NCBI RefSeq assembly: GCF_015354405.1
Contig: NZ_JADKYP010000002.1
Span: 310,001-374,000 of the forward strand
Direction of reading: 5' to 3'
DNA length: 64,000 nt
Source: Nocardia sp. BSTN01
GTDB lineage: Bacteria > Actinomycetota > Actinomycetes > Mycobacteriales > Mycobacteriaceae
Position 1 is the stretch's first letter. Every line of letters starts with the position of its first letter. A model generated the notes under the pieces. That model had not been told where the DNA came from. It did no database searches and was given only the letters and a program-made list of their open reading frames with translations. This document shows positions 2,313-6,572 of this stretch, piece by piece. A program made the translations under genes and the position numbers.

Positions 2313-4463
2313 GTGCTGATGATCATGGGGCGGGGACGACGAGACGGACATATCGGTGCCAGGCGCACCCCACTACATGCCGCGGTCGTGCTGTCGATCG
2401 CCGTGCTGATCGCGGCGTGCGGCAGTGCCGCCGCACCACAGGATCCCTATCTCTGGCTCGAGGAGCTCGACAGCCCCCGCGTGCAGGCGTGGGTCGGCGA
2501 TCAGAACCGGCGGACCCTCGATGTGCTCGAACACGATTCGCGCTACGCCGGCAATCTCGCGCAGGCGACGGCGCTGGCGAAGACGTCCGACCGGATCCCG
2601 ATGCCGCGCTTCGAGGACGGCACCGTCGAGAACTTCTGGCAGGACGATGACCACAAACGCGGCATCTGGCGCGAAACGACGGCCGCCGATTACGAAGCGC
2701 CGCAACCGAACTGGACCACCCTGCTCGACCTCGACGAGCTGTCGCGAGCCGAGGGGAAGAACTGGGTCTGGCGCGGCGCCGACTGCGATCCGGTCACGCA
2801 TCGCCGGTGCCTGATCAGTCTGTCCGATGGCGGCGAGGACGCCGTCTCGGTCCGCGAATTCGACCGCAGCACACGGCAGTTCGTGCCGGACGGATTCACG
2901 GTGCCGCGCGGCAAGGTGGACCTCACGTTCAGTGACGAGAACACGGTGCTCATCGCGCGGGAGTGGCACCCGGGTGAGATGACGGTCTCCGGCTACCCGT
3001 ATGTCGTCCGGCAGTGGCGCCGGGGCCAACCTCTCGACGCGGCAACCGAACTCGCGCGTGGCGACCGGACCGATCAGCTGTCGACCGCGCCGGTCGTGCT
3101 GGACAACGGCGCCGGGCGGCGGCTCGATCTCGTCGTGCGCGGCCGGACCTTCTTCGAACACGATGTCGACCTGCTCACCGCGACCGGCAGGGTACGGACC
3201 GCGCTCCCGGCGAAGTCGGACTTCGCCGGTCTGGTCGGCAACCACCTGCTGGTGTCGCTGCAGCAGGACTGGGTTCTCGGCGCGACGACTTTTCCGGCAG
3301 GCGCGCTGGTATCGGTGGACGCCGATCGACTGAGCACCGATCCGGACCATCCGCAGGTGACGCCGGTTTATCTCCCCGGCCCGGCGGAGAGTCTGAGCGG
3401 CGTGCAGGCCACGCGTGAGCACGTCGTGGTCACGTCACTGAACGACGTGCGCGGTCGCGCCACCGTCTACACACCGCGTCCGGACGGGACCTGGTCGCCG
3501 ACGCCGGTGCCGTTGCCGGACAACGCGACCGTCGACACCGTCACCGCCGATCCGGCGGGCGAGCACGCCTATCTCTCGGTGACCTCGTTCCTCGTTCCGA
3601 CCACGCTGTGGAGCGTGGACACCGCCGCCGGCACGGCCCGGCAGGTGAAAAGCACACCGCCGCAGTTCGATTCGTCCCGCTATGTGGTCGAGCAGCAGAA
3701 GGCGACCTCGGCCGACGGCACCCCGGTGCCGTATTTCGTGGTGCACGCCGCCGATATGGCGGTCGACGGCTCGAACCCCACCCTGATGAACGCCTACGGC
3801 GGCTTCGGGATATCGCAGACTCCCTCCTATCAGGCGACGCTCGGCCGGCTCTGGCTCGAGCACGGCGGCGTCTTCGTCCTGGCGAACATTCGCGGCGGCG
3901 GCGAATTCGGTCCCGCCTGGCACGAGGCCGCGCGCACCACCCGGCGGCAGCGGGCGTTCGACGATTTCGCCGCGGTCGGCAAGGATCTGGTGGCCCGGGG
4001 CGTGACCAGCCCACGGCGGCTCGGCATCCAGGGCGGTTCCAACGGCGGTCTGCTCATGGGGGTCGAATTCGTCCAGCATCCGGAGATGTGGAACGCGGTC
4101 GACATCCAGGTGCCATTGCTGGACATGATGCGCTACGAGAAGATCGCCGCGGGCGCCTCCTGGGTGGACGAGTACGGCAGCGTCGACGATCCCGCTCAGC
4201 GGGCGTTTCTCCAATCCATCTCGCCGTACGGGCAATTGCGACGCGGTGCGCGCTATCCGGAGCCGTTCGTCTGGACCACGACCAAGGACGACCGGGTGGG
4301 CCCGCAGCACGCCCGCAAGTTCGCCGCGCGGCTGGCCGAGTTCGGCGATCCGTATCTGTTCTACGAGGCGGGCGAGGGCGGTCACGGCGCCGGCGCCGAC
4401 CGGGAGGAACAGGCTCACACCAGCGCGCTCGAGTACACGTATCTGATGCGGCGACTGATGTAG
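2313..4463 (+). CDS. Prolyl oligopeptidase family (S9A) lipoprotein
   Basis: A serine peptidase of the prolyl oligopeptidase clan, 716 residues, cutting short peptides after proline or similar residues. The N-terminus is a lipoprotein signal: basic residues, a hydrophobic stretch and the lipobox L-I-A-A-C, so the mature enzyme should sit on the outer face of the membrane. It continues with PYLWLEE and the beta-propeller region. The alpha/beta-hydrolase domain then carries the triad: Ser in GGSNGG (about residue 575), Asp in TKDDRV (about 658) and His in GGHGA (about 690). The start is uncertain: GTG 2313, ATG 2319 and ATG 2325 all keep the signal and none has a clear ribosome site. It precedes the thioesterase and the ATP-grasp locus on the same strand. 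Confidence 0.9.
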   Translation: MLMIMGRGRRDGHIGARRTPLHAAVVLSIAVLIAACGSAAAPQDPYLWLEELDSPRVQAWVGDQNRRTLDVLEHDSRYAGNLAQATALAKTSDRIPMPRFEDGTVENFWQDDDHKRGIWRETTAADYEAPQPNWTTLLDLDELSRAEGKNWVWRGADCDPVTHRRCLISLSDGGEDAVSVREFDRSTRQFVPDGFTVPRGKVDLTFSDENTVLIAREWHPGEMTVSGYPYVVRQWRRGQPLDAATELARGDRTDQLSTAPVVLDNGAGRRLDLVVRGRTFFEHDVDLLTATGRVRTALPAKSDFAGLVGNHLLVSLQQDWVLGATTFPAGALVSVDADRLSTDPDHPQVTPVYLPGPAESLSGVQATREHVVVTSLNDVRGRATVYTPRPDGTWSPTPVPLPDNATVDTVTADPAGEHAYLSVTSFLVPTTLWSVDTAAGTARQVKSTPPQFDSSRYVVEQQKATSADGTPVPYFVVHAADMAVDGSNPTLMNAYGGFGISQTPSYQATLGRLWLEHGGVFVLANIRGGGEFGPAWHEAARTTRRQRAFDDFAAVGKDLVARGVTSPRRLGIQGGSNGGLLMGVEFVQHPEMWNAVDIQVPLLDMMRYEKIAAGASWVDEYGSVDDPAQRAFLQSISPYGQLRRGARYPEPFVWTTTKDDRVGPQHARKFAARLAEFGDPYLFYEAGEGGHGAGADREEQAHTSALEYTYLMRRLM

Positions 4464-4952: not shown

Positions 4953-5127
4953 GGCGTTGACAGCTCAACCGAATCGCTTTCGGCGATAGCGCTTTCCACG
5001 CCGGTGCCCCGGCACCGGGTTTGCACCGGAATTCTTTCGTTGCGAACCGGCCGGGCACCGTGGCGGGCTATGATCCAGTTCACGCTCGACTTCCGGGGCA
5101 AATCGCGAGCAGATCGGAGTCCAGCCC

Positions 5128-5601
5128 ATGAACGATGCCGGCCGCCAGGTACCCGGACACACCCGGCCGCGCCCGAAACCCCGCCACCCGGCGCCACCGC
5201 TGTCCGGCCGCCTGGTCGCCGAATCTCGCGACACCATCAGCGTCCGGGTCGCCGAGGGCATCTGGACCCTCGATCGCGACGACGTCCTCCAGCTGCGCGA
5301 CGAATCGCCGGATTCCGGCACCGGCGCCGCCGAACGCGCGGTCCTGGTCTGGATACGGCCCGGTGCCACAGCCGATTTCACGCAGCGTCGCCGCATTCAG
5401 CTCACCGAACGCCCGCTGACGCTGCCGCCCCGGCCCAGCCCTGCCGTCGGTGACGAGTTGCTGGCCCGCCTGACCGACCAGTGGGCCCGGAAGCTCGACC
5501 TCGCGCCCGCCCCGGGGGCCGCCGGCGCCACGGTGAGCTACAGCCAGACTCGCAGCGGCGGGGGCAGCGACGACGGCACCGCCTGCGACAGCCTGGACTG
5601 A
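5128..5601 (+). CDS. Candidate graspetide-type precursor, Ser/Thr/Asp-rich tail
   Basis: A 157-residue protein that I do not recognise from its own sequence. It begins with a Pro/Arg-rich stretch (residues 1-27), then a compact region (about 28-105: GRLVAESRD, GIWTLDRDDV, AVLVWIRPGA), then a helix-like segment, GDELLARLTDQWARKL. It ends in a flexible tail of about 25 residues carrying 3 Thr, 5 Ser, 4 Asp, Gly repeats and one Cys (TVSYSQTRSGGGSDDG, then TACDSLD). Such a tail is what an ATP-grasp ester/amide-forming ligase would need: hydroxyl donors and carboxylate acceptors. A good ribosome site (GGAG at 5116-5119) precedes the ATG, and the ATP-grasp gene starts 11 bases after its stop. The precursor role is inferred from tail composition and neighbour; a non-peptide partner role is possible. 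Confidence 0.7.
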   Translation: MNDAGRQVPGHTRPRPKPRHPAPPLSGRLVAESRDTISVRVAEGIWTLDRDDVLQLRDESPDSGTGAAERAVLVWIRPGATADFTQRRRIQLTERPLTLPPRPSPAVGDELLARLTDQWARKLDLAPAPGAAGATVSYSQTRSGGGSDDGTACDSLD

Positions 5602-5612
5602 GGAGCCGGTCG

Positions 5613-6572
5613 ATGAGTGCCCGGTCGCCGGGTGCCGTGCTGATCGTCGCCGAGAGCGGCGATCTGCACGCCGACGCGATGGCCTCGATGTTGCGGAATA
5701 TGTACGGACTCAATCCGATTCGTCTGGATATGCGCGATTTTCCGCGCGAATGCGGCAGTTTCCGGCTCGACCGCGCCGGCGCCGCCCGCTCGATGTCGCA
5801 TATCGCCGGTCTCGACGACGTGACCGCCGTCTGGTGGCGTCGTCCCCGGCCGTGCCGGGTGCCCGGCGGTTTCCTCGACGGCGACGACGATTTCCGGCAG
5901 GCCGAATGCGACGGGTTCCTGCAGGGCCTGCTGTGGTCGATACCGGCGGTCTGGGTCAACGATCCCGGCGCCGACCGCACCGCCACCCGCAAAATCGTGC
6001 AGCTCGACACCGCCCGGCGCAGTGGTTTCGCGATCCCGGAAACGTTGATCACCAATGATCCCGACGAGGCTCGCAGTTTCGTCGATTCCCGCGGCGGATC
6101 GGTCATCTACAAGCGGACGGGTACCGGCCGCGCGGAATTCTCCGAAACGCGCATCGTGAGCCGCGAGGATCTCGGCCGATTCGACACCATCCGCTCGGCG
6201 CCGACCACCTTCCAGGACTACGTCGAAGCCGAATGCGATCTGCGGGTGGTGTGGATCGACGGCGTCGAGTGGGCGGTGCGGATCGACTCGCAATCCGGTG
6301 CGGGATGGGTGGATTCGCGCCTCGACACCTCGGTGGCCTTCACTCGCGAGCGGCTGCCCGCGTCGGTGAGCAAGTCGCTGACCACGCTGATGGGCGCGCT
6401 CGGACTGGTGTTCGGCGTGCTCGACATCAGGCTCGGGCTCGACGGCGAGTACTACTTCCTCGAGGTGAACCCGCAGGGGCAGTTCGCCTACCTGGAGATC
6501 AAGACCGGGCTGCCGATCTTCGCCAGTCTCGCCCAGTTCCTCGTCCATGGTGAGGCGATGGTGTCGGGCTGA
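5613..6572 (+). CDS. ATP-grasp peptide ligase, MvdD/graspetide-maturase-like
   Basis: A 319-residue ATP-grasp enzyme. The N-terminal domain (1-105) has VLIVAESGDLHADAM and the W-W-R-R-P motif (TAVWWRRPRPCRVP) seen in the pre-ATP-grasp domain of microviridin/graspetide ligases. The ATP-grasp domain follows with lysine motif VIYKRTGTG, the segment QDYVEAECDLRVVWIDG and the metal-binding GVLDIRLGLDGEYYFLEVNP, then GQFAYLE. Family members form omega-ester or omega-amide crosslinks between Ser/Thr/Lys and Asp/Glu side chains of a precursor. GAGGAG overlaps the stop of the upstream gene, so the two are probably translated together. Membership in the graspetide-ligase clade is a strong family call; the substrate is an inference. 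Confidence 0.88.
   Translation: MSARSPGAVLIVAESGDLHADAMASMLRNMYGLNPIRLDMRDFPRECGSFRLDRAGAARSMSHIAGLDDVTAVWWRRPRPCRVPGGFLDGDDDFRQAECDGFLQGLLWSIPAVWVNDPGADRTATRKIVQLDTARRSGFAIPETLITNDPDEARSFVDSRGGSVIYKRTGTGRAEFSETRIVSREDLGRFDTIRSAPTTFQDYVEAECDLRVVWIDGVEWAVRIDSQSGAGWVDSRLDTSVAFTRERLPASVSKSLTTLMGALGLVFGVLDIRLGLDGEYYFLEVNPQGQFAYLEIKTGLPIFASLAQFLVHGEAMVSG

Follow-up and report, generated by a model that had tools for sequence, protein, structure and literature searches.

Across Nocardia, the precursor and enzyme genes described here are a near-core, syntenic unit that mostly occurs in one copy. They probably make up a two-gene graspetide unit, in which the ATP-grasp enzyme crosslinks the tail of the protein encoded directly upstream and the N-terminal part of that protein is a long leader or carrier. 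The pair lies in a stretch of 64,000 nucleotides from Nocardia sp. BSTN01 (the window), with the following features.

5026..5127, + strand: the precursor's own promoter-like region and its 5′ leader, with TATGAT at 5069-5074 and GGCAAATCGCGAGCAGATCGGAG, including the Shine-Dalgarno GGAG, before the ATG
5128..5601, + strand: precursor gene, an ATG open reading frame of 157 residues, with a homologous frame directly upstream of the ATP-grasp gene in 108 of 120 loci
5200..5382, + strand: N-terminal β domain, residues 25-85, six strands (AlphaFold prediction)
5410..5424, + strand: R95-P96-[MLI]-T98-[LI] motif, a candidate recognition element (R95 and P96 in 102/102 precursors, T98 in 101/102)
5452..5493, + strand: conserved helix, residues 109-122, with L112, T116, W119 and A120 (predicted structure and conservation)
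5527..5598, + strand: core, residues 134-157, ATVSYSQTRSGGGSDDGTACDSLD, with T135, S137, D154 and D157 as the likely crosslinked residues (conservation)
5613..6572, + strand: ATP-grasp graspetide synthetase, 319 residues (matches to TIGR04187, MvdC, MvdD and PDB profiles)

The arrangement given in the earlier note, a 157-residue frame followed by an ATP-grasp gene, holds, coordinates included. The gap between the precursor stop and the ATP-grasp start is 11 nucleotides, and the enzyme carries W-W-R-R-P at residues 74-78 and L-E-V-N-P at residues 283-287. Its nominal frame is longer, starting from a GTG at 5481; the ATG at 5613 is preceded by GGAG. The proposed graspetide type of the enzyme is borne out by family and profile searches. 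The NCBIfam graspetide matches extend over nearly the full length, with all three scores under the curated cut-offs: 218 bits (1.7e-64) for TIGR04187, the SAV_5884 subfamily (cut-off 350), 170 bits for TIGR04185, MvdC (cut-off 425), and 130 bits for TIGR04184, MvdD (cut-off 475). The second-ranking maturase match has an E-value of 5.4e-50. The PDB profile comparison matches six solved ligases, 5ig8, 7m4s (AMdnB), 5ig9, 9bou, 7mgv (CdnC) and 7drm, of which we take 5ig8 and 5ig9 to be MdnC and MdnB. The predicted model of the enzyme itself has low confidence (pLDDT 51.8). K127, K167, D234, S235, D271, E284, N286, Q290 and Y293 are identical in all 109 paired enzymes (those of 108 loci and the window, four being duplicates of another row); K127, K167, D271, E284 and N286 presumably have the roles of the conserved ATP-grasp residues.

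It is quite unlikely that the enzyme instead works like RimK on ribosomal protein S6 and attaches a small molecule or an amino acid to the conserved Asp157 at the C-terminus. Its weak similarity to RimK (17.7 bits, E 0.0018), the presence of two S6-glutamate ligases in the PDB comparison (E about 0.01, far behind the six ligases) and a conservation of the tail that reaches the last residue (D157 in 101/102) would agree with such a reaction, but graspetide maturases are the best matches by a wide margin, and a C-terminal extension leaves unexplained why Thr135 and Thr/Ser137 are kept despite changes in loop length.

The upstream protein had been described as unlike typical graspetide precursors, with a folded-looking N-terminal domain, and both descriptions agree with the searches and the predicted model. 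The 157-residue protein has no match in NCBIfam and only a chance-level match in Pfam (E 0.086). Its 37 relatives share no consistent Pfam or NCBIfam family, GRASP_targ included, and none of the 37 matches the GRASP_targ model TIGR04186 (cut-off 25 bits) at E up to 1. The predicted strands lie between residues 25 and 85, and the 10-residue blocks from 21 to 60 have pLDDT 92-97; this six-strand domain is perhaps an OB/SH3-like small barrel. Further along, R95-P96 is invariant in the 102 distinct precursors and is followed by Met, Leu or Ile in most of them and then by T98, 63 residues from the end. The resemblance of R95-P96-[MLI]-T to the RPFG of canonical leaders is suggestive; when the Nocardia C-terminus was compared by hhalign with a profile of 20 canonical precursors, the probability was 0.2%, so that homology was not detected. 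The helix that the earlier note had put forward as the recognition leader is present in the predicted model (residues 109-122) and is conserved, while for the recognition element itself the helix and the R95-P96-[MLI]-T motif are equal candidates.

The core does lie in the tail, as had been suggested, and begins at about residue 134; its Ser/Thr/Asp pattern is conserved across the aligned homologous tails. Of the 102 distinct precursors, 99 retain T135, T/S137, D154 and D157 together; the exceptions are L009 and L128, which lack T135, and L080, which lacks D157. The five most conserved columns of the tail are all Ser, Thr or Asp (T135 in 100 precursors, D149 in 101, D154 in 102, S155 in 101 and D157 in 101). 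The number of residues between positions 137 and 154 is 16 in 93 precursors, 7 in eight and 31 in one. Since the short-loop form is without T141, S143 and S147 and has an Arg at 148, none of these can be an essential donor or acceptor there. Because the same tail recurs with the pair in 108 of the 120 loci, it is not a chance feature, and its conservation around a variable loop is the pattern that a stem-loop (hairpin) graspetide would show. AlphaFold predicts the hairpin of the tail with low confidence (block pLDDT 44-58). The L080 precursor (N. brevicatena, 5548-5985) has Tyr for the last Asp, Arg for Cys153 and a Pro at 143; its enzyme keeps the LEVNP Asn.

The 120 loci comprise the 80 best enzyme relatives and 40 loci from the genus chosen mainly for divergence, four of which repeat an enzyme already among the 80. 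The role of the upstream protein as precursor partner is upheld by the 108 loci with a long precursor directly upstream of the enzyme. The remaining 12 are ten divergent Nocardia loci (L127 and L129-L137) and two paralogue loci (L138 and L139). Homologues of the enzyme without the neighbour had been named beforehand as evidence against the pairing. They do occur, in those ten Nocardia loci, but a direct reading of the sequences shows that all ten enzymes carry Asp or Glu where 109/109 paired enzymes keep Asn286 of LEVNP, which argues for the pairing of enzyme and precursor. For nine of the unpaired enzymes the residues listed above were tabulated: Asp replaces N286 in eight and Glu in one, and the number of enzymes with a change at the other positions ranges from one (K167 and E284) to eight (D234, S235, Q290 and Y293). 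From these comparisons of sequence, the pairing is strongly supported.

On the enzyme tree (48 rows: 33 paired, 10 unpaired and 5 outgroup), the unpaired state requires at least three changes, the number of independent losses being rough because some branches are long and the deep forks are weakly supported. One such change is L129, which stands beside the intact L029 (support 99/91) with an end branch of 0.36 versus 0.017. In G010, G123 and G138, homologues of the aconitase, TetR, thioesterase, HTH and ABC-F genes are found on one stretch from which both genes of the pair are absent; in G055, also without the enzyme, there is no ABC-F match at threshold. A 37-residue enzyme match in L163 (E 0.05) was taken as chance. 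Four close pairs of unpaired enzymes have dN/dS of 0.11-0.18, with 0.10 and 0.16 in two paired control pairs and 0.26 and 0.39 in two wider unpaired pairs. The low values in the close pairs speak against simple decay, and some of these enzymes may have kept another role.

The constraint on these precursor-less enzymes, together with the known partner-dependent synthetase of rosaritide (PMC13097080), is what would favour a reading in which the upstream protein serves the enzyme as a partner or regulatory subunit and the substrate is something else. This is very unlikely: the unpaired enzymes, having lost the LEVNP Asn, look non-catalytic or altered and not simply redirected, the tail combines donor and acceptor conservation with a variable loop length, and no second copy of the tail was found in the genomes searched with the tail profile.

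The unpaired loci have features of their own. The ATP-grasp enzymes of L131-L136 lack the LEVNP Asn, yet their close pairs have low dN/dS, as would be expected if they were retained for a role that is altered or non-catalytic. That of L137 (from 4001), with Asp at the same place, has a run of TPADFADRV-like repeats after about residue 150. In L129, a 33-residue frame ends about 12 nucleotides before the ATP-grasp gene (4001); its first ten residues match the N-terminus of the long precursor, and its tail is a new Ser/Thr/Asp-rich sequence. In L127, L130, L132 and L134-L137, short frames still follow the conserved 5′ leader and the precursor's start codon, the domain and tail being gone, and L132, L134 and L135 have extra AGCAGACGCGAC-like repeats within the leader. 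L138 (enzyme near 3986) and L139 (enzyme near 3980), from two Nocardia genomes, represent a second, distant graspetide-type locus, with an enzyme about 30-33% identical and precursor frames of 118 and 138 residues (about 100-117 from the ATG) that end in TYYQTYVWTGTTLDPWGADCD; the one tested has no NCBIfam match.

In a whole-genome search (E up to 1e-20), the enzyme is present in 145 of 149 Nocardia genomes. It is single-copy, although G022 and G112 also have distant paralogues (33%), and in G063 it is represented by two pieces of a single frame. With a 54-column profile covering residues 104-157, the C-terminal part of the precursor is detected in 134 of 148 Nocardia genomes, a sample one genome smaller than that of the enzyme search. 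The 14 tail-less genomes are exactly the four without the enzyme (G010, G055, G123 and G138) and the ten with a divergent enzyme. No second copy of the tail was found, the only matches beyond the 134 strong ones being eight at E 0.013-0.085. The best 80 of 153 relatives in the enzyme scan are all titled Nocardia, and in a sample of 298 genomes of the order the matches outside the genus are 29-39% identical to the enzyme. Within that sample, none of the 20 listed genomes from other genera of the same family has a match, and 236 further genomes without one are not named individually. The precursor profile, run on 396 genomes of the phylum, finds three Nocardia genomes and two short matches judged to be chance.

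In the 120 loci, homologues are found for HTH in 115, ABC-F in 113, TetR in 106, aconitase in 103, thioesterase in 91, cupin in 89, MarR in 85, the decarboxylase-like gene in 8 and the S9 peptidase in 6, all of these counts being lower bounds because the flanks span at most 4 to 6 kb and contig ends cut several loci. The two paralogue loci have none of the followed neighbours. The S9 peptidase at 2313 had been suggested as the maturation protease; a counterpart in only 6 of the 120 loci speaks against a dedicated partner of the pair. None of the nine neighbours in the window that were followed through the 120 loci is a conserved protease, transporter or immunity gene. Upstream of the precursor, an alignment of 36 regions (28 from paired loci, including the window, and 8 from unpaired loci) contains TATGAT in 31 and GATCGGAG in all 36. 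In 107 of 108 precursors, CGGAG lies no more than 25 nucleotides from the start codon chosen first; in the remaining one, L069, an internal start behind GATCGGAG had been used. The precursor has a promoter-like region of its own.

We infer a reaction in which the ATP-grasp enzyme would phosphorylate Asp side-chains in the precursor tail, and the phosphorylated Asp would then be joined to Thr or Ser hydroxyls to form macrolactones. A hairpin is the most likely topology: T135 and D157 would form the outer link and S/T137 and D154 the inner one, with the variable loop enclosed between them and D149 as a possible third acceptor. The β domain, the RP(M/L)T motif and helix 109-122 would together form the long leader or carrier, and the product may act inside the cell or be released by an unlinked protease.

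An ordinary released graspetide, with the cyclised tail cut near G132-A134 by an unlinked general protease and exported as a protease inhibitor or signal, is a possible outcome. Graspimiditide leaders must be removed, by native proteases that PMC12291112 gives as not yet determined. Conservation of the linker at residues 126-133 is low, at a mean pairwise identity of 0.37 that is undercut only by the loop at 59-68 (0.14), and G133-A134 is common (84 and 97 of 102). However, position 133 is Pro in 16 of the 102, so there is no strict GG site, the β domain (mean pairwise identity 0.61 and 0.67) is nearly as conserved as the core (0.71), unlike a disposable leader, and the nine neighbours followed include no conserved transporter or peptidase gene. 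It is also possible, if less likely than not, that the macrocyclised hairpin stays on its β-domain carrier as a cytoplasmic Nocardia protein with a housekeeping-like distribution, and not as a secreted natural product.

The Nocardia pair shares features with several known graspetides. In the GRASP_targ/SAV_5884 type (TIGR04186 and TIGR04187), the precursor gene is also directly upstream of an MvdD-like ATP-grasp gene, and TxT, DG and D..D also stand near the C-terminus, with the consensus TxTxTxxDGxxxEDxxxDxxxD in 20 outgroup precursors. The Nocardia pair differs from this type in that its precursor is unmatched by TIGR04186, which scores 41 and 28 bits with the two outgroup precursors tested, in having RP(M/L)T instead of RPFG and an added β domain, and in being genus-wide, syntenic and mostly single-copy. 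In 20 of 23 outgroup loci, the precursors beside related enzymes have a [RQT]P[FWY][GASV] motif (a match in L088, in an unrelated long frame, was left out of the count), and the TIGR04186 match in the L089 precursor starts at this motif. RPFG is described as the key recognition sequence of ThfA (PMC13003496).

Fuscimiditide and the graspimiditides (group 13, ThfA/ThfB) have the same stem-loop pattern of two Thr, a long loop and two Asp. Both of their esters are reported to be made by one ATP-grasp enzyme, the fuscimiditide links being Thr3-Asp22 and Thr7-Asp18 around a 10-residue loop, and the synthetase ThfB to accept loops of 4 to 72 residues (PMC12291112). Unlike these, the Nocardia precursor has R95-P96-[MLI]-T98 instead of the RPFG leader motif, and no methyltransferase, which in group 13 is of the PIMT type, was recognised beside the pair by means other than profiles, in a set of nine neighbours. 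PMC13003496 describes the leader of ThfA as a random coil, whereas the Nocardia precursor has a predicted folded domain. The homology of the Nocardia enzyme to those of the microviridins (AMdnB, 7m4s, and CdnC, 7mgv) extends over nearly the full length. Microviridin precursors are short and have a PFFARFL leader (PMC8939145). The Nocardia pair has neither this leader nor the different core motif of the microviridins.

Carter et al. 2026 extend the 24 earlier groups by 19, a part of which consist of just a synthetase and a precursor. Nocardia is unnamed in the main text of Makarova et al., as far as it was available, and a survey of 263 Nocardia genomes (2025) gives, in its available part, RiPP classes without graspetides (PMC12153302). 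In the accessible portions of the literature no description of the pair was found, and it may be listed among the supplementary synthetases of Carter et al. 2026. Judging from sequence and model, we call the pair a graspetide type that is new in its near-core distribution and in its unusual precursor, for which a folded carrier domain is predicted.

RiPP loci are usually patchy and mobile. That this pair keeps a fixed place in roughly 90% of the searched Nocardia genomes (134/148) raises the question of whether graspetide chemistry serves the producing cell, as does the lack of conserved export, protease and immunity genes among the followed neighbours. The genomes with an intact pair, with an Asn-less enzyme and with neither gene form a natural set in which function is testable by comparison. 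The Nocardia pair appears to be a wider-spread, oddly built version of the known graspetides, with a hairpin probably tied into the tail of its precursor.
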